From contig NZ_CP016094.1 in NCBI RefSeq assembly GCF_001746835.1, positions 1,488,001 through 1,552,000 on the forward strand: DNA of 64,000 nt, read 5' to 3'. Numbering within the stretch: position 1 is the first letter of the stretch; every line of letters begins with the position of its first letter. The notes under the pieces were generated by a model. It saw nothing but the letters and a program-made list of their open reading frames with translations, was not told the DNA's origin and did not search any database. Both the position numbers and the translations under genes were made by a program. The stretch is from Lacunisphaera limnophila. Lineage in GTDB: Bacteria > Verrucomicrobiota > Verrucomicrobiia > Opitutales > Opitutaceae. This document shows positions 39,198 through 57,584 of this stretch, piece after piece.

Positions 39198-39208
39198 TTT
39201 ACCGTCAC
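39198..39208 (+). promoter_or_regulatory. candidate operator, motif 2 (TTTACCGTCAC)
   Basis: GTCACTTTACCGTCAC lies in the divergent gap, 98 bases before the esterase start (39306) and 169 bases from the GH97 start. The TTACSGTC core recurs at 47529, 51589, 55322 (inverted) and 57575, all in promoter-like gaps. Confidence 0.5.
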
Positions 39209-39305
39209 GGGAAACCCTGGTCGTCGGCTCCGGCCGGAGCGAAAGGTTGTATCGCGCGATCCCCGCGATCATCGTCGCGTCGTCCGTCTCCCCCACACCC
39301 CACCC

Positions 39306-40541
39306 ATGAAAAATTCGCTCCGCGGGATCGTCCTCCCGCTTACTTTGGTTGTTACGCTCCTGCCGGCCAACCTGGCCGCCGCGGACCAGACCTACGCCGT
39401 CACCCTCGACCAGCCGGTTCACGGACGATTCTCGGTGGACCCGGCCCTGCCGGCGGACGGCCGCTATCCCGCGGGCACCGTGGTCACCATCACCACGCAG
39501 CCGGATACCGGGTACACGCTCGATGCCGGCTATTACTCGGTGCCCGGCCGCTGGGGGGCGATGTATCACGAGTCCCCGACGCCGGTCTTCAGCGTGGTGA
39601 TCGACCAGGACAAGCACCTCGGCGCCTCGTTCATCGAGGCGGCAGCGGTGGCGCATGTCACGGTGCGCGACAACATCGTCTACGCCCAACCGGGCAAGAA
39701 ACCGCTCAAGTATGACGTGTTCTCGCCTGTGGGGGCGAAGAACCGGCCGATCATCGTCATCATCCATGGCGGCGGCTGGACGACCAACGACGAGGACGTC
39801 ATGCGCGGCCTGGCGCGCGAACTCACGCGCGGCGGGCAGTTCGTCGTGGCTAGCATCGACTACCGCTGGGCGGGCAAGGCGGATGGCGATGCCACCGCCA
39901 ACTCGATGGTGAACCTGATCGAGGATTGTTACGGCGCCATCGCCCACATCAGGGAGCATGCGGCCGACTACGGCGGCGACCCGACGAGGATCGGCGTGAC
40001 GGGCGACAGTGCCGGCGGCCACTTGTCGGCGTCGGTTTCCCTGATGGTGGAACGGATCGGCACCCGCGGCTTCGGCCGCGAGCCCGGCGTCTTTGAATTC
40101 AAGCCTACCTATGTGCCGGCCGGGAAGTCCGTGGCTGAGCTGAAGGCGGAGATGCTGGTTGCGATCCGGGCGGCGGCGCCGAGTTACGGCGTGTTCGCCG
40201 GGGCGTGGCTGAAGGCCGACCCCGAGAACCCGGCGGCGGACGCGAGCTGGGACCAGGCGGTCCAGCCCCTCCATGCGATTCCCGCGGCGACCGGGCGCGC
40301 CGTGCCGCAATACCTGACCCGGGGCACGCGCGATCCGCTGATCACGGACGCGATGGTCACGGAGTTCATGGACGCGCTGGTGAAGGCCGGGCAGCGGGTG
40401 CAGTACGTGCAGGTCGGCGGGGCGGAACACGCCTTCTTCGACTGGAAACCCGATGCGAAGACAAAGGCCACCTTCGCCGAACACGGCGTCTATTACGCCG
40501 CGGAAATGAAGGCGTTCTTCGCGAGCGTGCTGCAGCCGTAA
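39306..40541 (+). CDS. secreted alpha/beta hydrolase (HSL-type esterase) with an N-terminal beta domain
   Basis: A 411-residue protein, the only plus-strand gene in the right half. Signal peptide about 1-26, then an unusual 27-112 region (DQPVHGRFSVDPALPADGRY, VVTITTQPDTGY) resembling InlB B-repeat/Listeria-Bacteroides-type modules. The catalytic domain has oxyanion motif HGGGW (154-158) and nucleophile Ser235 in GDSAGG. The late His is probably in GGAEHAFFDW. It probably hydrolyses acetyl or feruloyl esters. It is divergent from GH97 with motif 2 between. Confidence 0.85.
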   Translation: MKNSLRGIVLPLTLVVTLLPANLAAADQTYAVTLDQPVHGRFSVDPALPADGRYPAGTVVTITTQPDTGYTLDAGYYSVPGRWGAMYHESPTPVFSVVIDQDKHLGASFIEAAAVAHVTVRDNIVYAQPGKKPLKYDVFSPVGAKNRPIIVIIHGGGWTTNDEDVMRGLARELTRGGQFVVASIDYRWAGKADGDATANSMVNLIEDCYGAIAHIREHAADYGGDPTRIGVTGDSAGGHLSASVSLMVERIGTRGFGREPGVFEFKPTYVPAGKSVAELKAEMLVAIRAAAPSYGVFAGAWLKADPENPAADASWDQAVQPLHAIPAATGRAVPQYLTRGTRDPLITDAMVTEFMDALVKAGQRVQYVQVGGAEHAFFDWKPDAKTKATFAEHGVYYAAEMKAFFASVLQP

Positions 40542-40560
40542 GGCATGCCGCGCTGCCAAA

Positions 40561-40590
40561 AACCAGCCCGCGCGAAGCGCGGGCTCCACC
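40561..40590. repeat. 3'-end hairpin repeat, family 2 (copy 3)
   Basis: AGCCCGCGC - GAA - GCGCGGGCT then CCACC in the convergent gap between the plus-strand esterase and the GH3 gene. Perfect 9-pair stem; could terminate either side. Confidence 0.6.
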
Positions 40591-40638
40591 GGGCGGCGTT
40601 GACGGGAATTCCTGCCCGGCGAACGCGGCCCGGCGGGT

Positions 40639-43347
40639 TCAGAGCTTCACGGTGATGGTCTGGGTTAGGTCGGCGGAGGAGGCGCCGGCTGCGAGGGTCC
40701 AGTCGCCGGCCGGGACTGCGTAGTCCTTGGCGGCCACATCCCAGCGCCGGAGGGCGATGGCGGGGACCGTGACGGTGACGGTGCGCTTCTCGCCGGCCTT
40801 GAGCTGGACGCGGGTGAAGCCGCAGAGGGCGCGGATTTCCTGCGGGGCGGAGGCGGCGGGCGGCGTGGCGTAGAGCTGCACGACGTCGGCCCCGTCGCGG
40901 GTGCCGGTGTTGGTGACGTCGAGCGTGACGGTGAGCGCGCCCTCGGCGGCGGGCGTCACGCGGAGGTTGGCGTAGGAGAAGGTCGTGTAGCTGAGGCCGT
41001 GGCCGAAGGCGTAGAGCGGCTTCCCGGTAAAGTAGCGGTAAGTCCGGTTCTTCATCGAGTAGTCGGAGAAATCCGGCAGGTCCGCCGTGGACCGGTAGAA
41101 GGTCACGGGCAGGTGACCCGAGGGATTGACGAGGCCGAAGAGGACCTCCGCCACGGCCCGGCCGCCGCTCTGCCCGGGATACCAGGCCTGCACAATCGCC
41201 GGCAGGTTTTCGTCCTGCCAGGTGAGCGCCATGGCCGAGCCGCTGCAGTTGACCAGGACGACGGGCTTGCCCGTGGCGTGGAGGGCGCGGATGAGGTCCT
41301 CCTGCTCGGGCGGCAGCTCGATGGCGTCGCGGTCGAAGCTTTCCCCTTCCTGCGCCGCCGTGATGCCGCCCACGTAGACGATCACGTCGGCCTGCGCCGC
41401 CTGCTCCAGGGCCTCGGCCTTGAGCTCGGCGACCGAGCGCGTCGGCGTGTTGTCCTGTCCGCTCCACGGCGCGGTGGCCGTTTTGGATGTGATCGGGCTG
41501 CCCACGGCATGGGTGACCTTGAAGTCCTTGCTGGCCACGGCGCGGATGCCATCGAGGATGGAAACCGCGCGCGTGGGGGTGCCGTGGTAGTTGCCCTCGA
41601 GCATCGACTTGGAGGCGGCGTTGGGCCCGATGACGGCGAGCTGCTTCAGCTTCGCGCGGTCCAGCGGGAGCACGCCGGTGTTCTTCAGCAGCACGATCGA
41701 CTGCCGGGCCAGCTCCAGCGCCACCTCGTCGTGCGCCGGGAGTTCGTTGTCGAGGAGCGTGTACTTCGAGAACGGCACGAGCTCCGGCGGATCGAAGAGG
41801 CCGAGGCGGAAGCGGGTCCACAGGGTGTGGTAGAGCGCGACGTCGATTTCCTTTTCGGTGATCAGGCCCTGCTGCACGGCGCGCACGAGGGCGTTGTAGT
41901 CGCCGCCGCAGCAGAGGTTGGTGCCGGCCTTGACCGCGAGCGCGGCGGCCTCCTCGGCGGTCTTCACGTAGGCGTGCTGTTTCTCGCCGTAGATGTCGCG
42001 GATGGCATCGCAATCGGACACCACGTAGCCCGTGAAGCCCCAGCGCTGGCGCAGCACGCCGGTGAGGAGGGCGGCGTCGGCGCTGACCGGCACGCCGTTG
42101 ATGGCGTTGTAGGCGCTCATCACGCCGCCGACCTGGGCCTCGCGCACGAGGCGCTCGAACTGCGGCAGGTAGGTGTCGTAGAGGTCGCGCTCGTTGACCA
42201 CCGCGTTGAAACGATGCCGGGAAGGCTCGGGGCCGCTGTGGACGGCGAAGTGCTTCGCGCAGGCCATCGCGAGCATATAGTTCGGATCGTCGCCCTGGAT
42301 GCCCTTGACGAACTGGATGCCGATTTCGGCGGTGAGGAACGGATCCTCGCCATACGTCTCCTGCCCGCGCCCCCAGCGGGGATCGCGGAAAATGTTCACG
42401 TTGGGCGTCCAAAACGTCAGGCCCGCCCACCACCGGGAATCGCCCTGGTGCAGGTTGGCGTAGTCGTTGAACTTGGCGCGGCCCTCGATGCCGATCACCC
42501 GGCCCTCCTGGCGAAACAGCTCCGGGTTCCACGACGAGGCGGCCCCGACCGCCTGGGGAAACACGGTGGCGGCCCCGTTGTTGGCGACGCCGTGCAAGGC
42601 CTCGTTCCAGTAGTCGTAGGCGGGCAGGCCGAGGCGGGGGATGCCGGGGGCGGCGTTCTTGAGTTGCGAGACCTTCTCCGCGAGCGCCATGCGCCGGATC
42701 AGATCGTCGGCGCGGGCGCGCAGGGGCTGCGCGGGGTCGCGCCAGATCGCGGGTTCCTTGACCTCGGGCGGGACCATGGCGGCCCGCGAGAAGGCGTCGG
42801 CGAGATCGGAGGCGGCGAAGGCCACGACCTCCGCGCCGGCCTCGTCCTTGATCGTCACCGTGTTGAACTTCGCGTGGCCCTTGGTGGCGGTGAACACCAG
42901 CCGCAGTGGCCCGCGCAGGGCATCGTCGGATTTCTCGACGGTGCCGGTGACGGTGGCCGCCTTGCGCCGGCCGCCGGCGGCCACGAAGAGGTCGAAATCC
43001 TTCGCCAGCACCTGGTCGCCGGCGGTCACGTCGAACACGCGCTCGCCGGCCGCGTTCGCCTGCGTCTCGGAGGCGGCGATCTCGACGGTGTAGCGGCCGG
43101 CGGGGAGGTTGGCGATGGCCACGGTGAACTGCGGACCGTTGATATCCTCCCGATAGGCTGCGGGACCCGGCATCGGGGGCCCGGGGGGTTCCTTGCGGTG
43201 GGTGAAGTCACCGGTGACAGTGACCTTGCCGCCGCAGGTGGTGCAGGCCTCGTCGGCGGCGAAGGCCGCGGTGGCGGCCAGAAACAGGCCGGCGAGGAGC
43301 AGGCGCAACGAGCGGGTGCAGGTGGGCAGGACGGCGGACGATTTCAT
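40639..43347 (-). CDS. GH3 beta-xylosidase/beta-glucosidase with an N-terminal malectin-like domain
   Basis: A 902-residue secreted enzyme. Signal peptide about 1-31, then a carbohydrate-binding malectin-like region (about 60-190), then the GH3 domain starting at PLRARADDLIRRMALAEKVS. DPRWGRGQETYGEDP, ACAKHFAVH and the nucleophile Asp445 in YVVSDCDA are present. A C-terminal alpha/beta sandwich and fibronectin-III-like domain complete it. WNEALHGVA and the overall pattern favour bacterial beta-xylosidases. It would release xylose from xylo-oligosaccharides made accessible by the neighbouring esterases and GH43 enzymes. Confidence 0.9.
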   Translation of the reverse strand: MKSSAVLPTCTRSLRLLLAGLFLAATAAFAADEACTTCGGKVTVTGDFTHRKEPPGPPMPGPAAYREDINGPQFTVAIANLPAGRYTVEIAASETQANAAGERVFDVTAGDQVLAKDFDLFVAAGGRRKAATVTGTVEKSDDALRGPLRLVFTATKGHAKFNTVTIKDEAGAEVVAFAASDLADAFSRAAMVPPEVKEPAIWRDPAQPLRARADDLIRRMALAEKVSQLKNAAPGIPRLGLPAYDYWNEALHGVANNGAATVFPQAVGAASSWNPELFRQEGRVIGIEGRAKFNDYANLHQGDSRWWAGLTFWTPNVNIFRDPRWGRGQETYGEDPFLTAEIGIQFVKGIQGDDPNYMLAMACAKHFAVHSGPEPSRHRFNAVVNERDLYDTYLPQFERLVREAQVGGVMSAYNAINGVPVSADAALLTGVLRQRWGFTGYVVSDCDAIRDIYGEKQHAYVKTAEEAAALAVKAGTNLCCGGDYNALVRAVQQGLITEKEIDVALYHTLWTRFRLGLFDPPELVPFSKYTLLDNELPAHDEVALELARQSIVLLKNTGVLPLDRAKLKQLAVIGPNAASKSMLEGNYHGTPTRAVSILDGIRAVASKDFKVTHAVGSPITSKTATAPWSGQDNTPTRSVAELKAEALEQAAQADVIVYVGGITAAQEGESFDRDAIELPPEQEDLIRALHATGKPVVLVNCSGSAMALTWQDENLPAIVQAWYPGQSGGRAVAEVLFGLVNPSGHLPVTFYRSTADLPDFSDYSMKNRTYRYFTGKPLYAFGHGLSYTTFSYANLRVTPAAEGALTVTLDVTNTGTRDGADVVQLYATPPAASAPQEIRALCGFTRVQLKAGEKRTVTVTVPAIALRRWDVAAKDYAVPAGDWTLAAGASSADLTQTITVKL

Positions 43348-43396
43348 GGTAGGGGCAACGGGGGCGGGGAGAATGGGGCCGGAGAGCGGGCGGGTT

Positions 43397-44509
43397 CTAT
43401 TTCTGATCCAGGTTCACCTGCCAGTGGGCGGCGACGGCGCGGAGTTCGTCGGGGGTGAGAGGGATGACGGCGCCGTGCTTGGGGCGCTCGAAGTTCGTGC
43501 CTTTCATCACGCCCTCGTTGAAGCGGCCGAGGTGGTGGAAGGTCACGAAGTCCTCGGTCTCGCTGAAACCCATGTTGTTGGGCCGCGCGCCGTAGACGTC
43601 GTACATGAGCACGTAGGTGGAGGTGCCGGTCCGCCGGAAGATGTTGGGCGCCTCGGTGTTCACGGTCTCGGGGTCGATGCGCTGCGGCACCACGGTGTAG
43701 CCGTCGGCCAGCCGGGGGGAAGAGGCGTAGCGGATCTTGGCATCCGCGACGTAGAACATGTGCCAGGTGCCGTCCACGAGCGTGAGGTCGGCGTCGATGC
43801 CGCCGATCTCGGGAATTTTCTTGGGCACGGTCTCGAGCTTGGTGAAGGCCTCATCGGCGTGGGCCCAGAAGATGTTGGCGTGCTTGTTGGCGTAGCGGAT
43901 CGTGAAATACACGACCATTTTGCCGGCGACCGGGTCCCAGGTCGTCTGCGGCGCCCAGGAGCAGTCGATGTCGCCGAGTTCGGGGAAGGCGAGGTCGACG
44001 CGGAAATTGGCGTGCGTCCAGTGGATGAGGTCCCAGGACTTCATGAGCACGAGGGCGCGGTTGTTGCCCCAGCCGTATTTTTCCTCGGGGCGCTGCCAGC
44101 GGGTTGTGCGGTGGCCGGCGCGGTCGCCAAAGATGTGCAGGTCCGTCATCGCGAGGTAGAATGCGCCGTCGGGGCCGCGGGCGATGTGCGGGTCGCGCAC
44201 GCCCTTCTGCTCGGCCAGCGCGGCGCCGTCGAAGACGGGATCGCCGCCGTTGACGTCCGTGAAGGTGTAGCCGTCGCGGCTGATGGCGAAATAGGCGCAG
44301 TGGGTCGGGTCCTTGAAATACACCATGAGGTAACCGCCCATGTCTTGCTCGGAACGCGGGCCGGCGGTGGCGGGTTTCTCGAGGGCCGGCACGATGACGG
44401 TGCCGACTGGCCGGCGCGGGGTGGCGGGTGGGGTCGGAGCCGCCGGCGCCTGGGCGAAGGTGGTGGTCGCGGCGGCGGCGGCGAGGAGGAGGCAGGAGAG
44501 GAGTTTCAT
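43397..44509 (-). CDS. GH43 glycosidase
   Basis: A 370-residue secreted propeller enzyme: signal peptide about 1-19, Pro/Ala-rich linker, then GH43 blades with GVRDPHIARGPDGAFYLAMT (catalytic-region Asp), DCSWAPQTTWDPVAGKMVVY and EIGGIDADLTLVDG; the likely acid Glu is in TVNTEAPNIF. It lies 49 bases upstream of GH3, suggesting joint action on arabinoxylan or xylan. The start is preceded by CCCC. Exact specificity is not readable. Confidence 0.85.
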   Translation of the reverse strand: MKLLSCLLLAAAAATTTFAQAPAAPTPPATPRRPVGTVIVPALEKPATAGPRSEQDMGGYLMVYFKDPTHCAYFAISRDGYTFTDVNGGDPVFDGAALAEQKGVRDPHIARGPDGAFYLAMTDLHIFGDRAGHRTTRWQRPEEKYGWGNNRALVLMKSWDLIHWTHANFRVDLAFPELGDIDCSWAPQTTWDPVAGKMVVYFTIRYANKHANIFWAHADEAFTKLETVPKKIPEIGGIDADLTLVDGTWHMFYVADAKIRYASSPRLADGYTVVPQRIDPETVNTEAPNIFRRTGTSTYVLMYDVYGARPNNMGFSETEDFVTFHHLGRFNEGVMKGTNFERPKHGAVIPLTPDELRAVAAHWQVNLDQK

Positions 44510-44528
44510 GGGGTGCGTTCTTGCGGGC

Positions 44529-44640
44529 TGTAGGGCGGGGTCGCCGAACCCCGCCTTGCTGTGGAGACTGTGCTGCTGGGGAGGCGGGGTTCAGCCGTCG
44601 CCAAGGCTATGGCTGACACGGTCGGCGACCCCGCCCTACA
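44529..44640. repeat. modular inverted repeat, family 1, copy C (extended right arm)
   Basis: The left arm is the full 29 bases starting TGTAGGGCGGGGTCGCCG. The right arm is split: GGCGGGGTTC, then a 30-base insert with its own hairpin (TCAGCC ... GGCTGA), then CGGCGACCCCGCCCTACA. The element ends 6 bases from the carboxylesterase stop codon. Confidence 0.9.
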
Positions 44641-44646
44641 GGAAGA

Positions 44647-46206
44647 CTACTGCGCCCAGGCCGCGCCTTCGGGGGTGCGGCGCCAGGCGAAGTAGGTGTC
44701 GAGTACGGCCAGCGCGTCGGCGCTGGGGACGGGGCCGGGCTGGGCGGTGTCCTTGAAGACCATCACCTGGCGGTCGGTGGCGGTGAACTCCGGCCAGGCC
44801 GGGACGCCGGGGCCGTTGGGGTTGCCGTGCTTGGCGAAGTTCGCCCAGTAGGTGGACACCGTCTCGGAGATCGCGAAGTCCGCGGGGGTAAGCCGGGCGT
44901 CGTTGCGGTCGAGGGTTTGGAAGACATAGGGCACATCCACGCCGTGCGGCATGCCGTGGTCGGCCTCGGGCGAGTCGGCCGGGCGTTTCGCGTGCTGGTC
45001 GAAGTAATAGAAGAACACCTTGGACTTGCCGGTCTTAACCTGCAGGTTCGCCCAGGACCAGGTCTGCCAGCCGAAGGCGGCGTCGCGCATCAGGTCGCGC
45101 GCGGTCTTCGGGACGGTGCTTTCCCCGGCGGGGTAGGCGGCGAGGAGTTTTTCGGCGAAGGGGCCGTAGCGCTTCTCGGTGTTGGCGCGGTATTCGGCGG
45201 GCGTCTTCTCGCGCGAGAAGCTCAGACCCTCGTCGGAGTTATAGCCGACGAGGATGGCCACGTCGTTGTACCGGCCGGCCTGGTAGAGCTTGTGCTGGTC
45301 GTCGGGAATGATGTGGCCGTCGACGATGGGCCAGGCGGCGCCGCTGCCCCAGCCGGCGGGGAGTTTGCCGGGCGCGACCTGACGGAGTTCGGCGAGGGTG
45401 GCGGCGCCGGCTTTCTGGGCGTAGGCGACGCCGGAGGCCTCGGCCATGGCGAGGGTGCGCATGTTTTCACCCGGGTAGGTGGTGGGACGCGTGGGGCCGA
45501 AGGAACCGCCGCTCTGGGAGATAGCGCCTTGAAAGAGCCCCTTCGCCTGCGGCGAGGCGCAGAGCATGCTGACGGCGATGCCGCCGGCGGATTCACCGAA
45601 GATCGTGACCTGGTCCGGGTCGCCGCCGAAGGCCGCGATGTTGGCCTTCACCCACTGCAGGCCGGCGATTTGGTCCATCAGGCCGTAGTTGCCGGAGGCG
45701 CCGTGGCCGGACTCGGCGGTGAGTTCGGGGTGGGCGAGAAAGCCGAGCGGGCCGACGCGGTAGTTGATCGTGACGAGGACGACACCCTTGCGCGCGAGGT
45801 GCTCGCCGTTGTGCGTGGGATTGTTGTTCCCGCCGAAGGAGAAGCCGCCGCCGTAGATCCAAACGAGCACGGGGATCTTGTCGCCGGGGGATTTGGCCGG
45901 GGTCCAGACGTTGAGGTAGAGGCAGTCCTCGCTCACGCCGTTCGTGCCGTCGCCCTGATAGGGATCGGGACCGAACTTGTCGGCGGCGCGCACGCCGTCC
46001 CATTTCGCGGCGGGCTGCGGGGCGCGCCAGCGGAGGTCGCCCACCGGCGGGGCGGCAAAGGGGATGCCCTTGTAGACGGCGAGGTCCTTTTCGGCGACGC
46101 CTTGCACGAGACCGGTGGCGGTCATGACCGGTGCGGGGGCTTGGGCCAGGCCGGGGACGGTGGCACCGAGGGTGAGGAGGGAAGCGAGACAGAGGGCGGA
46201 TTTCAT
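44647..46206 (-). CDS. carboxylesterase type B (para-nitrobenzyl esterase family)
   Basis: A 519-residue secreted esterase: signal peptide about 1-22, type-B signature EDCLYLNVW (93-101), oxyanion YGGGFSFGG, and nucleophile Ser206 in TIFGESAGG. Triad acid is near NSDEG and His near ADHGMPHG. Members hydrolyse feruloyl, acetyl or other esters; the context suggests plant cell-wall esters. ATG 46206 is preceded by CTCCC; longer readings run into the upstream esterase gene. It follows the CE1-like gene by 25 bases. Confidence 0.9.
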   Translation of the reverse strand: MKSALCLASLLTLGATVPGLAQAPAPVMTATGLVQGVAEKDLAVYKGIPFAAPPVGDLRWRAPQPAAKWDGVRAADKFGPDPYQGDGTNGVSEDCLYLNVWTPAKSPGDKIPVLVWIYGGGFSFGGNNNPTHNGEHLARKGVVLVTINYRVGPLGFLAHPELTAESGHGASGNYGLMDQIAGLQWVKANIAAFGGDPDQVTIFGESAGGIAVSMLCASPQAKGLFQGAISQSGGSFGPTRPTTYPGENMRTLAMAEASGVAYAQKAGAATLAELRQVAPGKLPAGWGSGAAWPIVDGHIIPDDQHKLYQAGRYNDVAILVGYNSDEGLSFSREKTPAEYRANTEKRYGPFAEKLLAAYPAGESTVPKTARDLMRDAAFGWQTWSWANLQVKTGKSKVFFYYFDQHAKRPADSPEADHGMPHGVDVPYVFQTLDRNDARLTPADFAISETVSTYWANFAKHGNPNGPGVPAWPEFTATDRQVMVFKDTAQPGPVPSADALAVLDTYFAWRRTPEGAAWAQ

Positions 46207-46231
46207 GGGAGAGGAGCGGGACCGGCGGGGG

Positions 46232-47416
46232 TTATTCTTTCCGCCACAGCTTCGGCAGGAAGCGTTCGTGCAGGAGGTGGCGCCAGGTGGCCCAGTCGTG
46301 GCCGCCGTGGCCGCCGACATAGTACTCGTGCTGGATGCCATGTTTCACCAGCGCCTGGCGCAGGGCCTCGGAGCGTTCGCCCAGGCGGCCGGTGGATTCC
46401 AGGGCGCCGAGGCCGACGAAGAGATAGTCGATCTTGGTGTTCACCGCCGGGTCGTTGAGGAAGGTGGCGAGCGTGCGCTCGCTATCGGGGTCGCCGGCGC
46501 TGAGCACGCCGAAGTTGGCAAAGAGGTCGAGCGAGTTGAAGCCGGCGTACATGGTGTGGCGGCCGCCCATGGAGAGGCCGGAGAGGGCGCGGCCCCGCGG
46601 ATCGCGGCGGACGGAGTACTCGCGCTCGACGAGCGGGAGCACGTGCTGGCGGAGTTCGGCTTCGAATTTCTTGAAAGTGAGCTCGGCGTGCTGCGGGTGG
46701 TTGCGGTGAACGACCTGGTTGTTGGGGATGACGATGACCATCGGGACCGCCTTTCCCTCGGCGAGGAGGTTGTCCATGATGAAGTTAACGCGGCCATCGT
46801 GGATCCAGTTGTGCGGGAGTTCGCCGCTGCCGCCGACGAGGTAGAGGACGGGGTAGGTCTTCGTGCGGTCGTAGCCCGGCGGGGTGTAGACGTAGAGGTC
46901 GCGCTCACCCTGGGTGACATCGGAGTGGTAGATGTGGCGGGTGATGCTGCCGTGCGGGACGGGGCGTGCGTCGTAGTAGGCCGGACCGTCGCCGTGGACG
47001 ATGAGCTGGCTGTAGGGCGGCATGCCGGTGAAGGCGGCCTGGGTGTTGCTGGGATCGGCGACCTGCACGCCGTCGATGCGGATGAGGTAGGCGTAGATGT
47101 CGGGGCGGAGCGGGCCCATGGTGAGCGTCCAGATGCCGTCCGCCCCCTTTGCGAAGGGTAGCGTCTCGCCCCAGTTCCGCCCGACGGCGGCGAGCACCGC
47201 GCCGTTGAGCTCGACCTTTTCCGCCTCAGGCGCCTTCACGCGGAAGGTGACGGTGCGGTCGGCGTGGACCTCGGGGGAATTGAGCGGCGCGCTGAACGGG
47301 ATAAGGTTCTCCGTGTTCTGCTGCGGGTTGTAGTCGAGGTTGACGTTCGCCTGCTGCGCCCGGGTGAGGAGGGGGAGCAGGAGACAGCCAACGGCCAGGA
47401 GGAAACGGGGGCGCAT
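46232..47416 (-). CDS. CE1-like esterase with an N-terminal E-set/CBM48-like domain
   Basis: A 394-residue secreted enzyme: signal peptide about 1-20, then an Ig-like E-set domain (about 38-130: VTFRVKAPEAEKVELNG, WTLTMGPLRPDIYAY) typical of feruloyl esterases. The catalytic domain has YTPPGYD, VLYLVGGSGE and nucleophile Ser282 in SGLSMGG; GGHGGHDWATWR holds the His. The pattern resembles bacterial feruloyl esterases acting on arabinoxylan. It heads a two- to four-gene minus-strand run; motif 2 lies 113 bases upstream. Confidence 0.88.
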   Translation of the reverse strand: MRPRFLLAVGCLLLPLLTRAQQANVNLDYNPQQNTENLIPFSAPLNSPEVHADRTVTFRVKAPEAEKVELNGAVLAAVGRNWGETLPFAKGADGIWTLTMGPLRPDIYAYLIRIDGVQVADPSNTQAAFTGMPPYSQLIVHGDGPAYYDARPVPHGSITRHIYHSDVTQGERDLYVYTPPGYDRTKTYPVLYLVGGSGELPHNWIHDGRVNFIMDNLLAEGKAVPMVIVIPNNQVVHRNHPQHAELTFKKFEAELRQHVLPLVEREYSVRRDPRGRALSGLSMGGRHTMYAGFNSLDLFANFGVLSAGDPDSERTLATFLNDPAVNTKIDYLFVGLGALESTGRLGERSEALRQALVKHGIQHEYYVGGHGGHDWATWRHLLHERFLPKLWRKE

Positions 47417-47528
47417 GCAGCGGCGGGGGTGGGGGTTAGGGCCGCCGGATCGGGGACAATCCGGCGGTGGGTATCGCGGGTTGAAATGTCTAGGGAAAGC
47501 GGAGCCGCGCGGCCACGGGCCCGCCATG

Positions 47529-47540
47529 TTACCGTCCAGT
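47529..47540 (+). promoter_or_regulatory. candidate operator, motif 2 (TTACCGTCCAGT)
   Basis: TTACCGTCCAGT sits in the 134-base gap before the CE1 gene at 46232-47416 and is identical over 12 bases to the site at 51589. CGCCA and TGGCG flank it symmetrically. Confidence 0.5.
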
Positions 47541-47550
47541 GGCGCGGGGC

Positions 47551-47883
47551 TCAGCCCGGGACTGCGGGGATCGGGATGCGCAGGTCGGGTTCGTCGTGTT
47601 CAAAATTGATCCGCAGGCTGCCGGCCACCTCGGTGCCGGCGGGGGCGGCGGCCGCGGCCAATTCCTCGGGCGAGGGGGGCGGCAGGTGGACGCCGATCGT
47701 TGCGAGGGACTGCCGGAGACGGGCGAACCCGGCCGGCGGGAGTTCCAGCGTGAAGCAGACGGCCAGGTTCGAGAACTGGTTGTAGTCGAGCACGTGACCG
47801 CCCGCGGCGACGATGGCATCGGACGCGGCGGAGGTCGCGGCGTGTCGGGGTTCGCGGGTTCGTCCCTCGAGGCGAATGATCAT
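47551..47883 (-). CDS. small conserved-looking hypothetical protein
   Basis: A 110-residue protein with no signal peptide and no catalytic motif I recognise. MIIRLEGRTREPRHA, GHVLDYNQFSNLAVCFTLELP and RINFEHDEPDLRIPIP look like a compact alpha/beta domain; I have an impression of similar ~100-residue proteins in other bacteria but cannot name the family. Codon usage and the CCC-ATG start fit a real gene. It lies 36 bases after an alpha/beta hydrolase on the same strand. A role in polysaccharide use is not implied. Confidence 0.6.
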   Translation of the reverse strand: MIIRLEGRTREPRHAATSAASDAIVAAGGHVLDYNQFSNLAVCFTLELPPAGFARLRQSLATIGVHLPPPSPEELAAAAAPAGTEVAGSLRINFEHDEPDLRIPIPAVPG

Positions 47884-47919
47884 GGGCGCAGGTCGGTGCG
47901 GCGGATCCGGGTGGGCGGA

Positions 47920-48708: not shown

Positions 48709-48724
48709 CGGGTGGCGGGGGCGC

Positions 48725-48803: not shown

Positions 48804-48808
48804 GTCAC

Positions 48809-50356: not shown

Positions 50357-50369
50357 GGGGGTGAAGCGA

Positions 50370-50506
50370 TAGGGCGGGGTCGCCGACGGAGGCGGGGCGG
50401 AGAGGGCGAAGCAACCCCGCCGCGAGCGCGGCATCGGCAGCGAATCAAGGCGGGGTTCAGCCGTCGCCATGGCTATGGCTGACACGGTCGGCGACCCCGC
50501 CCTACA
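50370..50506. repeat. modular inverted repeat, family 1, copy E (both arms extended)
   Basis: The left arm AGGGCGGGGTCGCCGA is interrupted by a GGAGGCGGGGCGGAGAGGG segment before ACCCCGCC. The right arm carries the same 30-base hairpin insert as copy C (CAGCCGTCGCCATGGCTATG). It ends in CCCTACA 6 bases from the next stop codon. The longest copy in the window. Confidence 0.85.
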
Positions 50507-50512
50507 ATGATC

Positions 50513-51472
50513 TTACTTGGCGGCGACCGGCTTGAGGAAGCCGTTGTGGTCGAGCCAGTGGGTGAAGGGTTCGAACCAGTAGTAGGTGGGGTGGCCGGGG
50601 TAGCCCATGCCGAAGCCGTGGCCGCCGTCCTGGTAGAGGTGGAACTCGACAGGGCGCTTGGCGTCGTACCACGACTTGATCAGGCCGAATTCGCCGTTGA
50701 AGAGGAAGTCGTTGGCGGCGATGGCCACAAACAGCGGGGGCGCGTCCTTCGGCACCTCGACCGGGCCCATGCCGCCGTAGATCGGGGCGATGAAGAGCAG
50801 CTTCATGGTCTTGGAATTGAGCGTGCAGTGCATCGTCAGGCCGGCGCCGGCGGAGAAGCCCATCATGCCGATGCGGTCGGGGTTGACGTTCCATTCCTGG
50901 GCGCGGGCCACGATCATCGCGTAGGCGGCCTCGGCGTCGGCGAGCTGGTTGTCGAGATTCGGGCGCGGCGGGCGCGGGGGCGTGGCCGGGGCGGGCGCGG
51001 CAGCACCGCCGGCGGGCGGCGTGACGGCGGCGAAGGTGCGGTTCATCGACTGCTGCAGGCCCTCGATCGTCGGCGGGGTCGGGATGAGGCGGTACTTGAG
51101 CACGAAGGCGGCGATGCCGCGCTCGTTGAGCGCCTTGGCGATTTTCCAGCCCTCGTTGTTGATGGAGAGCCAGCGGAAGCCGCCGCCGGGGGCCACGATG
51201 ACGGCGGTGCCGTTGGCCTTGGCGGGATCGGGGAGATAGGGCGTCAGGGTGGCGGTGGAGACGTTGCGCACCATCGGCTCGCCCCACTGGCGGAACCAGC
51301 TTTCGGGTGCGGGTTGGTCGGCGACGCCGCCGGTGCCGAGCGGGATGGCGCCGGGCTCGGCGGGAGCGTCGAGCGGGAGGATGGTGCCGTCCTGCGCGAA
51401 GGCGGACGCGGCGCAGGCGAACAGGGAGACGAAGGCGGCCTTTTTGGCCAGAGAGACGAACAGTCCAGGCAT
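50513..51472 (-). CDS. secreted alpha/beta hydrolase (acetyl/feruloyl esterase, BD-FAE-like)
   Basis: A 319-residue protein: signal peptide about 1-26, oxyanion region VIVAPGGGFRWLS, nucleophile Ser207 in MMGFSAGA, and His in QDGGHGFGMGY. A Pro/Ala-rich insert at about 151-171 is unusual for the family and may be a flexible loop. ATG 51472 gives the signal peptide; an upstream in-frame start overlaps motif 2 and was rejected. It probably deacetylates or deferuloylates xylan. Confidence 0.85.
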   Translation of the reverse strand: MPGLFVSLAKKAAFVSLFACAASAFAQDGTILPLDAPAEPGAIPLGTGGVADQPAPESWFRQWGEPMVRNVSTATLTPYLPDPAKANGTAVIVAPGGGFRWLSINNEGWKIAKALNERGIAAFVLKYRLIPTPPTIEGLQQSMNRTFAAVTPPAGGAAAPAPATPPRPPRPNLDNQLADAEAAYAMIVARAQEWNVNPDRIGMMGFSAGAGLTMHCTLNSKTMKLLFIAPIYGGMGPVEVPKDAPPLFVAIAANDFLFNGEFGLIKSWYDAKRPVEFHLYQDGGHGFGMGYPGHPTYYWFEPFTHWLDHNGFLKPVAAK

Positions 51473-51588
51473 GGTAATGCGGAGTTGGGGGTTGGGGGTG
51501 CCCATCGAATCCTGGATTAGGACGAACCAAGTCGCGGGTGCATCGGGCATAGGCCGGGGCGCCGGCGGTGGCAACGGGCGGTGCAGCA

Positions 51589-51600
51589 TTACCGTCCAGT
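51589..51600 (+). promoter_or_regulatory. candidate operator, motif 2 (TTACCGTCCAGT)
   Basis: Identical over 12 bases to 47529-47540 and 117 bases upstream of the esterase at 50513-51472. It directly abuts family-1 copy F. Confidence 0.5.
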
Positions 51601-51603
51601 ACG

Positions 51604-51706: not shown

Positions 51707-51748
51707 ACTTCGGACGAGCTAAAACCCCGACGCCGAGGGACACCGGTA

Positions 51749-52588
51749 TTATTTGGCGCCGAGCAGCGGCAGCATTGTCTCGGCGTAGCGGCGGCCGAGT
51801 TCGCGGTAGCCGGCGGGGCTGAAATGCAGGTGGTCGGCCACGGCCTCGCAGCCGTCGGAGGACACGAAGTGCGCAGTCGGGATGGTTTTCGGCAAGTCGG
51901 CGATGACCGCGTTCATGGCGGCACACTTGCCCTGCTGGTCGGCGGGGACGACGCCCCCGGCGAGCAGCGGCACGGTATCGGCGGTCAGGCCGAGGTCGGC
52001 GAGCAGCCGCTCGTAGACGGCCTTGACCTTGGTCGGCCAGGCCGGATCGCCGACGTTGGATTCACCCTGGTGCAGGAGGATGCCCTTGATGACACCCGAT
52101 TGTTGCGCGATCCGCGCCATGTCCACGAGCCGCTGGTAAGGACTGTCGTTGTACGCCTTGAGGGCACCCTTCATCCAGCCGGGGGCGGTGGCCACATAGT
52201 CCGGGAAGGCCACCGGGTCGAAGAGCTCAATCTTGCAGCCGCCCACGGCGACGTTCACCACGCCGATGCGGATGTTTTCCGGCAGCGCGGCGGCGAGGGC
52301 GCGACCGAAGCCGTCAGCGGGGCTCATGCCGGAGTTCGGCCGGCAGAGCGGTGGCGTGGCGGGATACCATTTCCCCTGCTCACGGCCCAGCGTCGGGAAA
52401 TCGACCGCCGCCAGGACCTGGAAGCGCGGGTTGGCGTAGGACTTCTCCTCGTCGGGGATGCCGGGATAACCCTCCATGTTGGATTGTCCGAGGCAGAGGT
52501 AGATGTGGAAATCCTTGTCTTGGGCCTGGGCGCGAGCGCAGAGCAGGAACAGGGTGGCGACGGCCAGCGGGAGGAAGCACTTTTTCAT
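51749..52588 (-). CDS. CE6-like SGNH acetyl(xylan) esterase (SASA domain)
   Basis: A 279-residue secreted esterase: signal peptide about 1-22, then an SGNH domain of the sialate-O-acetylesterase/CE6 type. GQSNMEG gives nucleophile Ser36, GGCKIELF and LLHQGESN follow, and DHLHFS has Asp252 and His255. CE6 enzymes remove acetyl groups from xylan. It lies 20 bases after the GH39 gene in a ThuA-GH39-CE6 operon, fitting joint attack on acetylated xylo-oligosaccharides. Confidence 0.87.
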   Translation of the reverse strand: MKKCFLPLAVATLFLLCARAQAQDKDFHIYLCLGQSNMEGYPGIPDEEKSYANPRFQVLAAVDFPTLGREQGKWYPATPPLCRPNSGMSPADGFGRALAAALPENIRIGVVNVAVGGCKIELFDPVAFPDYVATAPGWMKGALKAYNDSPYQRLVDMARIAQQSGVIKGILLHQGESNVGDPAWPTKVKAVYERLLADLGLTADTVPLLAGGVVPADQQGKCAAMNAVIADLPKTIPTAHFVSSDGCEAVADHLHFSPAGYRELGRRYAETMLPLLGAK

Positions 52589-52608
52589 AAGGAGGGGGCG
52601 GGGGGAAC

Positions 52609-54324
52609 TCAGCGTTGCTTGAGGGGGATCTCGATCAACCCGACGGACTGACCGAGCAACTGCAAGTCAAAGGTGGCGGCGCCGGCGGCCGGGGTGGACG
52701 CGGGCAGGGGTTCGGCACGGAGGGTGGCGGCGGCGTGCAGGCCGGCGATTTGCGCGGGCGTCGGGTCCTGCGGTTCACCGAGGGCCAGCCAGGCGGTGAA
52801 GGCGTTGGCGTGGGTCTGGTCGATCCGGGTGAGCGTGACGGCGGCAAGGTCGTGATCGGCGGTGATACCGGTGACCCGGAGCGAGGCCGCCGTTGACTCG
52901 TAGAAACCGACGGCGACGTCGTGATAGTTCCACACGAGGATGCGGAGCGCGCCCGTGTCTGTCCGCGTGGCGACGACGCCGAGGTCGGGGGCGCCGCGCA
53001 CACTCTTGGTCAGGATCTCGGCGATGGGGCGCATACCGGTGGACGCGGACTCGACGCGCATCGACCCGAGACGCGAGAAGAGTTTGAAGGCGTTGAAGAC
53101 GGGCAGGGCGATCTCGTTGGTCGTGAGGGCGCGGAGGCCGTTGAACCAGGGTTGGTCGTGGAAGGTGAAGGCCCAGGAGACGGCGCCCTGCAAGTTGCCC
53201 CCGTGGGCGGCGGCGAGGTCCTGCTTGCGCATGAAGGACGCGGCGGTGTACGCGGCGAACTGCGAGGTGCGGCGGTAGTCGCGCTGCGGGTCGAGCGTCG
53301 ACGGACAGCCCGCGCAGCCCTCGGGGTCAGACTCGCCGATGTAGACAGGCAGGGCGGCGTATTCCGGAAAGCCCGCGATGATGCCGCTGTAGAGATCGAT
53401 CGTCGCGAGGTGATTGCGGAGATCCATCTCGACGCGGCCCGACTCGTCGAGGCGCGTGAGACCCTTCGCGTGGTAGGCGACGAAGTCGAGCGGGGCGCCG
53501 GTGCCGCCAGTGGCCGCGTTTTTCCCGGAGCGGCAATGCTCGAGGAAGGCCGCCATGAACAGGTCGCCACGCTTCCACTTCGGGTCCGTGGTGTGCGGCG
53601 CGCCGACGCGGGCCTCGGGGACGACGGCTTTCACCGCGGCGGTGAAGTGGTCGTAGAGGCGGCAGTAATCCGCGACCGTGCCCTTGAAGTAGGGCGACTC
53701 GGGCTCGTTCCACAATTCCCAGAGCCAGGAAGCGACGGCGGCGCGCCCGTAGCGCTCGACGCAGTGGCGGACCCAGGCCTCGATGAACGCCTGCCACTTG
53801 GCGTGGTCCTTGGGTGGGTAATAGGCGCCACCGGAGAGGATGTCGTTCGAGGGCAGGCCGCGTTTGGTCAGTGACGGGGTGTAGGGTTCGGGCGAGGCCG
53901 AGAGCGCCTGCGGCATGAAGCTGACCTCGATGAAGGGTTCGAGGCCCGGACGGGTGAGCTCGTCGAGGATCGCGTCGATCCGCGTCCAGTCCAGGACCGG
54001 GTTGCCCTGCGCGTCCTCGGTATAGACGTTGGTGCTGGACCACTTGAGGGCGAGGGTGCCGTCGCCGCTGGTGTGGAGGTGATGCACGCGGATGCGGATG
54101 GGTTCCGCGTCCGTCATCTGGTTGAGCTCGCCGAGCAGGTGCCGGCCCTCGGGCGTGAGCGTGGTGAGGGCCTCGTCGTAGCCGAAATAGTTCCAGATCG
54201 GGCGGAGTGCCGTGGTCGGCCGGTCGGCGTGGACGGTGATCTCCACCGGACCGTCCGCGGCGGCGAGGGGCGCGGCGAGGCCGAGGGCAAGAGCGAGGCC
54301 GAAGAAGGAGTGGGGGTATTTCAT
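52609..54324 (-). CDS. GH39 beta-xylosidase-like glycoside hydrolase
   Basis: A 571-residue secreted enzyme: signal peptide about 1-23, TIM barrel and C-terminal beta-sandwich. GH39 motifs include NYFGYDEALTT, VHHLHTSGDG, FIEVSFMPQAL, acid/base Glu207 in LWNEPESPY and nucleophile Glu331 in YIGESDPEG. GH39 members are mainly beta-xylosidases; other specificities exist, so xylose is likely but not certain. It sits 18 bases after the ThuA gene and 20 bases before CE6. Confidence 0.88.
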   Translation of the reverse strand: MKYPHSFFGLALALGLAAPLAAADGPVEITVHADRPTTALRPIWNYFGYDEALTTLTPEGRHLLGELNQMTDAEPIRIRVHHLHTSGDGTLALKWSSTNVYTEDAQGNPVLDWTRIDAILDELTRPGLEPFIEVSFMPQALSASPEPYTPSLTKRGLPSNDILSGGAYYPPKDHAKWQAFIEAWVRHCVERYGRAAVASWLWELWNEPESPYFKGTVADYCRLYDHFTAAVKAVVPEARVGAPHTTDPKWKRGDLFMAAFLEHCRSGKNAATGGTGAPLDFVAYHAKGLTRLDESGRVEMDLRNHLATIDLYSGIIAGFPEYAALPVYIGESDPEGCAGCPSTLDPQRDYRRTSQFAAYTAASFMRKQDLAAAHGGNLQGAVSWAFTFHDQPWFNGLRALTTNEIALPVFNAFKLFSRLGSMRVESASTGMRPIAEILTKSVRGAPDLGVVATRTDTGALRILVWNYHDVAVGFYESTAASLRVTGITADHDLAAVTLTRIDQTHANAFTAWLALGEPQDPTPAQIAGLHAAATLRAEPLPASTPAAGAATFDLQLLGQSVGLIEIPLKQR

Positions 54325-54342
54325 GGGCGTGGAAGGGACGGC

Positions 54343-55272
54343 TCAGGGCGTGGCGGGCAGCGGTATATCCCCGCGTACGGAGACTTTTTCGGCGGTCGGG
54401 AAATCAGCGGGCACGGGATAATCAGCCGGGCGGCCGGCAAGCCACTGGAGGGCGCGGACCATGACGGTCTGCAGGCCGGCGCAGCGCATGCGGGCTGGCT
54501 GGGTGTCGCCTTTCCAGACATGGCCGAAGGTGGAGGTGTAGACGCGGCCGCGGCCGTAATCGACAGTCCACTCCAGCGGCCATTCCTGTTTCGTGTCCGG
54601 ATCGAAACCGTGGGAAAGCACCGTGAGATTCTCCGCCGGACCGCGGGCGAAATAGTAGACCTCGATGTCGGGGGTGAGCCAGGAGCGCGGAAGGCCGGCG
54701 TGCAGCGGGTGGTCGCCGAGGCGGTGGACGACGGTGTCGAGGCGGTTGCCGTGGCCGGTGTCGCGCCCCTCGCCGGCCGGGATGCGGATGGTCCGGCCAT
54801 CGGGGCCGACGGCCAGGGCCCAGCCGAAGGTCTTTTTGCGCCAGCCGAGACCGATCATCTCATTGTAGGCGGGCCAGCCGGCGAAGGCGTTGTTGCCGGC
54901 GTGCCAGACGTAGAGTCCGCCGCCGTTCCGCACGTAGGCCTCGAAATCCTCCTCCACCGCGCGCGGCCATCGGGGGCCGCCGCCGAGGTCGTTGCAGGTC
55001 TGGATGACGACGTCGTGGTCGGAGAATTTGGGACGCCAGGTATCCCAGCCCGGGGAGTCTGCGGTGGCCGGGGCGGTCGAGACCGTGACGGTGAACTGGC
55101 CGGTGGGCTCGAGGATGCCGCGGATCAACGCGGTGGTGAGGCGCCAGTCATGGTTGCTGTAGCCGTCGACGATGAGCACCCGGAGGGGGGCGGGACCGGC
55201 GGGCGAGGCCACGCCGAGCGTCCAGCCCAAGGCCAGCCACAGGAGCAGACAGACGGGGGTAACGCGTCGCAC
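54343..55272 (-). CDS. secreted ThuA-domain protein
   Basis: About 309 residues with a signal peptide and a class I glutamine-amidotransferase-like ThuA fold: VLIVDGYSNHDWR, VVIQTCNDLGG, GGGLYVWHAGNNAF, VYYFARG and a C-terminal TFGHVWKGD. ThuA proteins work with Gfo/Idh/MocA dehydrogenases in 3-keto-sugar metabolism in rhizobia; whether this one does so is unknown. No ATG is available: GTG 55281 and GTG 55272 are in frame. I prefer 55272, since the resulting MRRVTPVCLLL matches the signal peptides of the GH51 and GH127 proteins. First gene of the GH39-CE6 operon. Confidence 0.8.
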   Translation of the reverse strand: MRRVTPVCLLLWLALGWTLGVASPAGPAPLRVLIVDGYSNHDWRLTTALIRGILEPTGQFTVTVSTAPATADSPGWDTWRPKFSDHDVVIQTCNDLGGGPRWPRAVEEDFEAYVRNGGGLYVWHAGNNAFAGWPAYNEMIGLGWRKKTFGWALAVGPDGRTIRIPAGEGRDTGHGNRLDTVVHRLGDHPLHAGLPRSWLTPDIEVYYFARGPAENLTVLSHGFDPDTKQEWPLEWTVDYGRGRVYTSTFGHVWKGDTQPARMRCAGLQTVMVRALQWLAGRPADYPVPADFPTAEKVSVRGDIPLPATP

Positions 55273-55320
55273 GGAGATCACGGTGACGGTGGGATCGGTC
55301 GGTTCGAGGGGTGCCGTGGT

Positions 55321-55331
55321 TGACCGTAATG
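55321..55331 (-). promoter_or_regulatory. candidate operator, motif 2 (inverted; ATTACGGTCA)
   Basis: On the minus strand CATTACGGTCAACC matches CATTACCGTCCAGT of the 51589 site at most positions; the centre base is swapped, as expected for an odd palindrome read from the other side. It lies 50 bases upstream of the ThuA start. Confidence 0.4.
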
Positions 55332-55364
55332 TGGGCGTCGGACGATCGAACCCGGATCAGGCTG

Positions 55365-57482
55365 TCATTCGGCCGCGACCTCGGCCCAGGTGAGCACGGT
55401 GCCGTCGCGGCGGTTGGGGGTGGTGCCGGGCCAGTCGGCGCCGTAGGGCTCACCGGTGTCGGGGGCGAGGCCGACGAACCGGTTGGTGTGCAGCGAAAGC
55501 AGCATGCACTGGCGGTCGCGGAGCAGGTCCTGCCACATGAAAAGACTCGCCGCGGATTCCTGCTTCAGCGGGCGGACGTCGGCGGAGAGACCGGCGCCGA
55601 CGACGGTGAGGAAACCGCTGCCGTCCATGACCTCGAGGGCGACGCGACCCTGGCCGCGGTCGTGGACGCGGAAACGCGCCTGCGGGCTGCTGGCCGGCTT
55701 CGAGCCGGGCGCGGCCGAATGGAGCATGCCGTGCGGGTTGGCCCAGACGACGGAGCCGTTGGCGAGGTTGGTGAAGGTGATGACCTTTCCGAGAGGCAGG
55801 TTTGGCGTGCGATCGGCCAGCGGTTCCTCGACGCGGAAGCCGGCGAAGTCGGCGTGGCCGCCTTCGCGGCCGGCGGTGTTGAAGGCGAAGAGGCCGAGGC
55901 GCGTGCCCTGGAAGGTCTTCAACTGGTAGGGCAGGCGGATCTCGCCGCCGATGTCGGTGAAGGTCCGGCCGTCGGTGCTGTAGCTGAGGCGGGCGACATC
56001 CTCGTCGAGATCGGCGGTGGCGCGGAGCCAGACGCGCGGCGCGGGCAACGGTTGGTCGAGGGTCTGATTTTTGAACTGGTCGTAGTGGCGGAGCACGAAG
56101 CCCGCGTCGGTCGACGCGACGCCGAGCGTGGCGAAGGGCATGTTCACGAGCGCGAGGCCGGCGGTGTCGCCGGGTTGCAGGCCGGAGGCATCGAGCTCGG
56201 CCGTCACGACGGAGACCGGGCCGATGGCGCGCTGCGTGAGCGTGTTCTTGGCCCAGAGCAACTGGGTGGCGGGGAGGGTGTGCAGGCGGAGGGAGCCGGG
56301 GTTTTCCGTGAGCGACCATTTCGCGTTCACCGGGTTGTGGTTCCATTGCCAGACGGGCAGGAGCTTCGGGCCGGCGAAATCGTCGCTACGCTCATAGGGG
56401 GCGTGAGGTTCGACCTTGGCAGCGACGGCGGGCTTGGTCCAAGTGCGCGGTGAGCGGCCGAGGTTGCCGGGCAGGCCGAAGTACGGCCAGCCGTCCACCC
56501 AGGTGACGGGCGAGAGCGCGGTGGTGCGGCCGACGGAGCGGAAATCGAGCATGGAGAAACCCCACCAGTCGCCGTTGGGCAGGTCGACGATGCCGCCCTG
56601 GTGCATGGGCACGGCGGCGTGCTGGTTGCCGCCCGGGGCGGAGAGTTGGAAGGTCGCGCCGGGCTCCGGCACCTTCATGCCGAGGCCGATGGGGTTGAGC
56701 GACCAGCCGCGTTGGGTGCCGAGGGTTTCCTTGGCGGCGATGACGCGGGTCTCGTAGGGCCCATGCACGTGGTCGGCGCGGGCGGCCTGCATGCGGCCGG
56801 TGGGCGCGTAGTTGGCGCTGAGGATGTGATACTGGCCCTTGATCTTGTAGAAGTGGTGGCCCTCCCCCATGGCATTGCCGCGCGGGATGACGACGCGCTC
56901 GCTGCCGGCGATGAAACCGCTGAGGTCGGGCTTGAACTCGATGACCTTCACCTCGTCGTAGCCGTAGACGGCGTAGATGCGGCCGTCGTCGTCGAAGAGC
57001 ACGGACAGGTCGTGGATGCCCGTCTGGATGCTGCGGTGCGCCCAGGGGCCGGCGGGATTGTCGGCGGTGAAGACCTGCAGGCTGTGGCCGTTGACGTTGG
57101 AGAAGAGGTAGAACTTGCCGTTGTGATAGCGGATGCACGGCGCCCAGATGCCCTGGCCATAGGCTTCCTTGCCGTTCTCGAGGTTGAAATCCGGCCCGAG
57201 CTCGAGGCGGTCGAAGGCGTAGCTGAGGAATTTCCAGTTCACGAGGTCCTTGGAGTGCAGGACCACGAGGCCCGGCATCGCGTGCATCGTGGTGCCGGCG
57301 AGGTAGAAGTCCTCGCCCACACGGATCAGATCGGGATCGGAGAACTCGTCATAGAAGAGCGGGTTCGTGTAGGTGCCGTTGCCGTTGTCGGCGGTCCAGG
57401 ATACCGCGCGCGGCGCGGCGGCGAGGACCGGGGTGGCGGCGAGCAGGAGCAAAGCGGCAAGGCGGGGCAGGCGGGGGCGCAT
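55365..57482 (-). CDS. GH43 enzyme fused to a beta-sandwich and a fascin-like beta-trefoil
   Basis: A 705-residue secreted multidomain enzyme. Signal peptide about 1-22, GH43 propeller about 35-340 (EFSDPDLIRVGEDFYLAG, GIWAPCIRYHNGKFYLFS, NAMGEGHHFYKIKG with the probable acid Glu). Next a GH43_C2-like beta-sandwich (about 365-555) of the beta-xylosidase type. The last ~140 residues (ITFTNLANGSVVWANPHG ... LTWAEVAAE) look like a beta-trefoil of the fascin/actin-crosslinking type, rare on GH43. It probably acts on xylan or arabinan, with the trefoil aiding binding. ATG 57482 is preceded by GCCCC. Motif 2 lies 92 bases upstream. Confidence 0.85.
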   Translation of the reverse strand: MRPRLPRLAALLLLAATPVLAAAPRAVSWTADNGNGTYTNPLFYDEFSDPDLIRVGEDFYLAGTTMHAMPGLVVLHSKDLVNWKFLSYAFDRLELGPDFNLENGKEAYGQGIWAPCIRYHNGKFYLFSNVNGHSLQVFTADNPAGPWAHRSIQTGIHDLSVLFDDDGRIYAVYGYDEVKVIEFKPDLSGFIAGSERVVIPRGNAMGEGHHFYKIKGQYHILSANYAPTGRMQAARADHVHGPYETRVIAAKETLGTQRGWSLNPIGLGMKVPEPGATFQLSAPGGNQHAAVPMHQGGIVDLPNGDWWGFSMLDFRSVGRTTALSPVTWVDGWPYFGLPGNLGRSPRTWTKPAVAAKVEPHAPYERSDDFAGPKLLPVWQWNHNPVNAKWSLTENPGSLRLHTLPATQLLWAKNTLTQRAIGPVSVVTAELDASGLQPGDTAGLALVNMPFATLGVASTDAGFVLRHYDQFKNQTLDQPLPAPRVWLRATADLDEDVARLSYSTDGRTFTDIGGEIRLPYQLKTFQGTRLGLFAFNTAGREGGHADFAGFRVEEPLADRTPNLPLGKVITFTNLANGSVVWANPHGMLHSAAPGSKPASSPQARFRVHDRGQGRVALEVMDGSGFLTVVGAGLSADVRPLKQESAASLFMWQDLLRDRQCMLLSLHTNRFVGLAPDTGEPYGADWPGTTPNRRDGTVLTWAEVAAE

Positions 57483-57573
57483 GGGGCGATCGGGGTTGGG
57501 CCGGATACTGGACTCCGGCGCGGGGTGCGCAAACCTGCACGCGGTCGCCGGGAAACGGAAGCCCCGGGCCCGC

Positions 57574-57584
57574 TTTACCGTCAC
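57574..57584 (+). promoter_or_regulatory. candidate operator, motif 2 (TTTACCGTCAC)
   Basis: Same 11 bases as the 39198 site, in the 115-base gap before the GH43-trefoil gene. Confidence 0.5.

Follow-up and report, generated by a model that had tools for sequence, protein, structure and literature searches.

Arabinose regulators described in other bacteria

The closest published analogues that we found for the system described here are AraQ of Bifidobacterium and, in its logic, BtAraR of Bacteroides thetaiotaomicron. The system was recognized in a 64,000-nucleotide stretch of the Lacunisphaera limnophila genome (contig NZ_CP016094.1, positions 1,488,001 to 1,552,000; hereafter the window), where the word TTACSGTC recurs in upstream gaps of the right-hand, arabinan/xylan module. 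It is very likely that this word forms the core of the predicted operator of an AraR-like arabinose regulator of the LacI family. The gene of this regulator (C1:1472106-1473185) is divergent from araB-araA-araD and lies some 15 kb beyond the left edge of the window. AraQ, too, is a LacI-family protein whose gene lies beside an ara operon; palindromic operators are predicted for it in front of both the ara genes and araQ itself, and its regulon extends beyond ara (PMC4746261). In contrast to the L. limnophila system, with the consensus TACTTGACnGTCAAGTA and a polysaccharide cluster as its target, AraQ is reported to use the even operator TGTGAGCGCTCACA and to reach into central glycolysis (PMC4746261).

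AraR of Bacillus subtilis, a GntR/LacI chimera, is described as an ara repressor that arabinose releases and that has a LacI-type effector domain; the L. limnophila protein has the same type of effector domain and is presumably released in the same way, but it carries a LacI helix-turn-helix where AraR has a GntR-type DNA-binding domain (PMC4666351). BtAraR, of the NrtR family, is likewise an arabinose-responsive repressor of arabinose and arabinan genes; however, it belongs to an unrelated protein family and works together with an arabinan-responsive activator (PMC4666351, PMC5061871). In the L. limnophila regulator, matches to PF00356 (1.7e-14) and PF13377 (8.8e-11) delineate a LacI helix-turn-helix and a periplasmic-binding-like effector domain. 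LacI and Peripla_BP_3 are the only domains at E 0.001, with no GntR and no Nudix-like domain. The neighboring araB, araA and araD were identified by NCBIfam, and a sugar-binding protein has a YtfQ match that falls short of the curated cut-off.

An autoregulated LacI-family transcription factor with a palindromic operator is also the pattern of the sugar regulons in a broad LacI-family survey (PMC4052901). More than 75% of the surveyed sites are reported to lie 30-140 bp before a start codon, and each of the five window sites has a start codon within that range, though the GH97 start, 174 bp away, is not among them (PMC4052901). Where the window element departs from most surveyed motifs is in being odd, at 17 bp: 1251 of the 1303 motifs are even palindromes and odd ones make up 4% (PMC4052901). 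The strings "Verrucomicrob" and "arabino" are absent from the main text of the survey. Among the open-licence PubMed Central papers listed, judged by title and opening lines, we found none describing such a regulator, operator or regulon for Verrucomicrobiota.

The palindromic element and its recovery from other genomes

A sequence-only reading of the window had reported the motif in five promoter-like gaps, and all five copies were found where it placed them, at 39199, 47529, 51589 and 57575 on the plus strand and at 55322 on the minus strand; a sixth, at 19973, lies within a left-module gene. Longer versions are rarer: TTTACCGTCAC has three copies in the whole genome, two of them in the window, and both genomic copies of TTACCGTCCAGT are in the window. 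The genome-wide scan suggested in the same reading returned 68 copies of TTACSGTC in the single contig of 4,199,284 bp which, by our own gene calls, fall in coding sequence (45), upstream gaps (19) and convergent gaps (4). The right module holds five copies in 16 upstream gaps (those 30-600 bp long, 1,877 bp in total), against one in 175 control upstream gaps (26.2 kb) drawn from 400 kb of the same genome. That single control copy, at coordinate 1471972, is the araB/lacI site.

Could short words be shared this often by chance in a window of 68% GC? Such gaps often have 8- and 11-mers in common, six or more TTACSGTC matches arose in 3 of 100 window-wide shuffles, and some 8-mer was common to four gaps in 62% of 500 random gap sets. 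Because such sharing is so common, weighting by expected frequency matters. With frequency weighting and repeats masked, no 8-mer of the right-module gaps is more surprising than GACGGTAA (p 6e-8); a better one turned up in 3 of 300 random gap sets and was every time the start-codon word CCCATGAA. The gap-set, column-shuffle and cross-genome controls, together with the recovery of the sites by a matrix trained without the own genome (see below), make coincidence a most improbable account. The shared motif is real and beyond chance.

In full, the element spans 17 bp and is an odd palindrome, CACnTKACSGTMAnGTG, with TTACSGTC as its core. The sequence-only reading was right about the motif but saw the core only; the element is larger, palindromic and not confined to the locus. 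Its "inverted variant" ATTACGGTCA is not a separate form: since S is the axis of the palindrome, it is the same site. TGACCGTAAWGTG, first drawn from a by-eye alignment of the gap copies, is matched exactly at just four genomic positions. One is in the araB/lacI gap and one at window 55321; the other two are upstream of the genes for a ytfQ-type binding protein and a GH51-type arabinofuranosidase. Allowing one mismatch adds two, at window 39195 and at 1614401. The wider element CTGNACGGTAA was also tried and dropped, with 59 matches in 24 genomes against 98 for the reversed control.

The strongest evidence came from sequences outside the L. limnophila genome. From the 30 best LacI loci of 80 genomes we removed L234, which is the own locus, and the truncated L240 and L263. 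In the 160 bp upstream of the remaining 27 orthologues, all from other genomes of the family, we searched for a palindromic 17-mer, with no motif supplied. The best unsupervised solution was the family consensus given above. TTGACnGT lies within 22 of the 27 chosen sites, and one orthologue is preceded by a perfect CACTTGACCGTCAAGTG. The operator of these orthologues appears as an odd 17-bp palindrome before their own genes, with A, C, G or T at the center, rather than as an even one with a central CG.

The position weight matrix (PWM) derived from these sites was then used to rank 464 kb of the own genome, which had no part in the training. All five window sites came out near the top. The site before the GH43 gene, CGCTTTACCGTCACGTG at 57571..57587, ranked first (PWM 16.6). 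TGGTTGACCGTAATGTG at 55317..55333, before the ThuA-GH39-CE6 unit and one of the four exact TGACCGTAAWGTG matches, was fourth (16.0). CACTTTACCGTCACGGG at 39195..39211, one mismatch from CACNTKACSGTMANGTG and located between GH97 on the minus strand and a BD-FAE-like esterase on the plus strand, was sixth (14.8). AGCATTACCGTCCAGTA at 51585..51601, before the BD-FAE-like/arabinofuranosidase unit, was seventh (14.5). CATGTTACCGTCCAGTG at 47525..47541, before the unit running from a CE1 esterase through a carboxylesterase and a hypothetical gene to GH3, was the weakest of the five (12.0, rank 11). Ranks 2 and 3 are in the araB/lacI gap, and rank 5 is in the divergent gap between an arabinofuranosidase and GH42. 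None of 300 matrices with shuffled column pairs equaled the five right-module gap sites that the real matrix has among its 11 best matches (maximum four, once), nor did any of these reach eight sites in upstream gaps (maximum six, twice). When the matrix was restricted to the 18 orthologues with less than 65% identity, four of the five window sites remained in its top eight. As a matrix of the araB-linked LacI, trained in 27 other genomes and without use of the window, picks out these sites, the proposal that one shared regulator co-regulates the five units is supported at the level of predicted operators. In a further 14 LacI loci, a site scoring at least 11 precedes lacI in 11 of the 13 that have an upstream, but this set shares at least some genomes with the training set and is therefore not independent evidence.

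Choice of regulator and points against it

Upstream of many lacI orthologues the left half resembles TTGACA, and TA-rich bases follow GACGGTAA in some sites. These features raise the question of whether the word is a core promoter element, either a -35 TTGAC or an extended -10; at lacI, a -35 box could account for part of the TTGAC signal. However, the word does not keep one orientation to its gene, GTCAAG recurs as an inverted right half, five lacI sites start just 19-20 bp before the start codon, and the word is present in 1 of 175 background upstream gaps. The variable orientation and the recurring inverted right half-sites led us to reject the core-promoter explanation, which we regard as improbable.

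The recognition helix speaks for the araB-linked LacI as the protein that would bind the palindrome. It reads SKNTVSLAL and fits the pattern SKNx[VI]SxAL, which 25 of the 29 readable orthologues share (the own protein counted among them) and which the 10 other LacI domains of the own genome lack. Two orthologues without this helix (L261, L262) also have off-consensus sites. Given this distribution of helices and sites, among the orthologues and among the own LacI domains, the predicted assignment of the sites to the araB-linked LacI is strong but indirect.

The leading competitor would be another regulator that responds to arabinose or xylose and has a look-alike motif, for instance a LacI paralogue; the genome encodes 11 LacI domains. 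One is in the window itself (22711..23742, minus strand; Pfam LacI). The left module shares a word of its own, TCGGACTGTC, with a related GAC-n-GTC core; it has three copies in the window, all in gaps (4750-4759, 10647-10656, 23943-23952), and none in the 400 kb background. The copy at 23943 is in the upstream gap of the LacI gene in the window, and TCGGACTGTC is probably the operator of that protein, a candidate regulator for the left module, not for TTACSGTC. Its recognition helix is SRTTISD, versus SKNTVSL in the araB-linked protein. The patchy occurrence of target sites in relatives, which may have other regulators, would also suit a look-alike. Against it, the matrix was built only from upstream regions of araB-linked LacI genes, the araB-linked protein is alone among the 11 own LacI domains in having the SKN helix, and the left module has no matrix sites: 0 of its 12 upstream gaps scores at least 10, compared with 5 of 20 on the right. 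We thus consider another regulator unlikely. The sequence-only reading had suggested that two regulators divide the locus and that the left motif is distinct. This division holds in silico, since the left gaps lack matrix sites and contain TCGGACTGTC; on this evidence two regulators appear to split the locus, each half with a different LacI as its likely regulator.

A number of observations weigh against the araB-linked LacI as the regulator. Helix and site do not always go together: three orthologues have the SKN helix but poor sites (L241, L257, L258), and two with an SKY helix have good sites (L242, L244). One of the two one-mismatch TGACCGTAAWGTG matches, that at 1614401, is coding. The 47525 site is weak; three coding matches, coming after 51585, outrank it, and with the distant-orthologue matrix it drops out of the top 16. 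Relaxed patterns show no excess in the own genome: with mismatches, TGACCGTAAWGTG gives 43+30 matches genome-wide versus 36+47 for the reversed control, the palindrome at two mismatches 11 versus 17, and ACTTGACSGTCAAGT at three mismatches 93 versus 132 per strand. As neither two-mismatch pattern exceeds its reversed control in the own genome, weak matches are mostly noise; 6 of the 11 two-mismatch palindrome sites are among those named in this analysis. In 16 genomes this pattern was below the reversed control in 14, equal in one and above in one, so only its best matches were used. We also built a covariance model from the sequences of 26 sites, omitting one outlier among the 27; at E up to 10 it returned no match in 499 kb, and the matrix ranks therefore refer to 464 kb. 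Finally, a site scoring 17.1 is located inside the pyruvate kinase coding sequence (G000:C1:597589-597605). This is probably a chance match, but regulation of pyk is reported for the Bifidobacterium AraQ (PMC4746261).

To the same side belongs the patchiness of target sites in relatives, the main result against a conserved arrangement. A site scoring at least 10.5 lies directly before the GH97 homologue in one of seven relatives that have one (G017), and the same holds for GH43 (G023, where TCCTTTACCGGCAAGTG is about 83 bp before the gene). Sites of this strength also precede an esterase-GH3-GH97 run in G020 and, in G004, the arabinofuranosidase gene next upstream of GH43. None was found at the remaining GH97 and GH43 loci examined, and a supplementary scan of five related loci likewise gave no site. 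In G016, where the order of the cluster genes differs, the promoters of GH97, CE1, ThuA and GH43 have no good sites, with weak ones (7.0-8.5) confined to the unit heads. GH127 of this genome is preceded by a site scoring 11.3, and the upstream region of the orthologous BD-FAE-like gene keeps AGGATTACCGTTCAGTG (score 8.5). Direct upstream alignment with G016 and G020 is poor, the word being kept in the BD-FAE upstream only.

The sites recur more clearly around arabinose genes. In the own genome they precede araB/lacI, the ytfQ-type operon and arabinofuranosidases, as an arabinose regulon would have it. In 24 related genomes, chosen for having a LacI match, there are 12 exact copies of CTTGACnGTCAAG, spread over eight genomes, against 4 for the reversed control. 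Six are directly before lacI and count once only, because they are training sites. The other six are before araB (two; 79-81% identical to own), before a ytfQ-type binding protein (two; 82%), before an arabinofuranosidase lying after an araD-like gene (one; 67%) and inside a glyceraldehyde-phosphate dehydrogenase gene (one). Proteins related to the YtfQ type are reported to bind L-arabinofuranose (PMC10191376). The recurring core of the regulon consists of lacI, araB, the transporter and an arabinofuranosidase.

Predicted regulation and target units

If the araB-linked LacI is the regulator, a dimer of it would most likely bind the 17-mers and repress, and L-arabinose or a derivative would release it. 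Release would then jointly induce ara catabolism, the ytfQ-type transporter, the arabinofuranosidases and the arabinoxylan-type cluster. With one sensor for the arabinose pathway, the plant-fiber-cutting enzymes would therefore be switched on together with it, and free arabinose, not xylan or arabinan as such, would induce the esterases, GH97, GH43, GH39 and the arabinofuranosidase. Analysis of sequence alone has in this case turned a vague word into a testable prediction by naming a regulator, its predicted operator and part of its regulon, and the operator matrix can be applied to related genomes. One could speculate, tentatively, that an own-clade LacI arabinose sensor of the Opitutaceae, with its non-canonical odd operator, became the regulator of a whole hemicellulose-degrading cluster. 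A single cytoplasmic monosaccharide sensor might then play the part that dedicated polysaccharide sensors have in Bacteroidetes, with new operators arising promoter by promoter in the course of the cluster's break-up and rearrangement.

We infer the grouping of genes into target units from family knowledge, orientation and gene content; units 2 and 3 were each taken as one unit from orientation and spacing alone. Unit 1 is the GH97 glycosidase (37095..39029, minus strand; Pfam GH97 N, catalytic and C domains). The sequence-only reading correctly placed the 39198 site before this gene, but overlooked that the gap is divergent and that the BD-FAE-like esterase at 39306..40541 on the plus strand (Pfam Abhydrolase_3, BD-FAE) shares the site. 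Unit 2 (40639..47416, minus strand; Pfam Esterase, COesterase, GH3) comprises the CE1-like esterase (46232-47416), a carboxylesterase, a hypothetical gene and GH3 (40639-43347). Unit 3 (47551..51505, minus strand) contains a BD-FAE-like esterase, an arabinofuranosidase (Alpha-L-AF_C), an alpha/beta hydrolase and a small open reading frame. Unit 4 (51749..55281, minus strand) is ThuA-GH39-CE6 (SASA). Unit 5 (55365..57482, minus strand) is a GH43 with a GH43_C2 domain; its earlier label "GH43-trefoil" has to be given up, as Pfam finds no trefoil domain there at E 0.001. In site order, the distances from site center to start codon are 174 (GH97) and 103 (divergent esterase), 117, 88-121, 44 and 97 bp. 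A spacing of 50-170 bases before the first gene, as first proposed, accordingly does not fit the ThuA site (44 bp).

The cluster extends beyond the right edge of the window. A sixth operator-like site, CGCTTGACCGTCATATT, is 5 kb further right (G000:C1:1556982-1556998), between a divergent arabinofuranosidase and GH42. Within the window, an operator-like sequence at 62184-62200 (score 12.4) overlaps the start codon of the gene at 61316-62197. The right-module gaps also contain a dispersed repeat with the core CGGGGTTCGGCGACCCCGCCCTACA, for example at 35044-35223, 36004-36115 and 51506-51748. We counted nine copies of its 17-base end in the window, compared with 11 in 400 kb of the same genome; 12-base pieces of it are found in 6 of 16 right-module gaps, and there is a similar copy in the relative G016. 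Palindromes such as GTGATATCAC in the right-module gaps adjoin this repeat.

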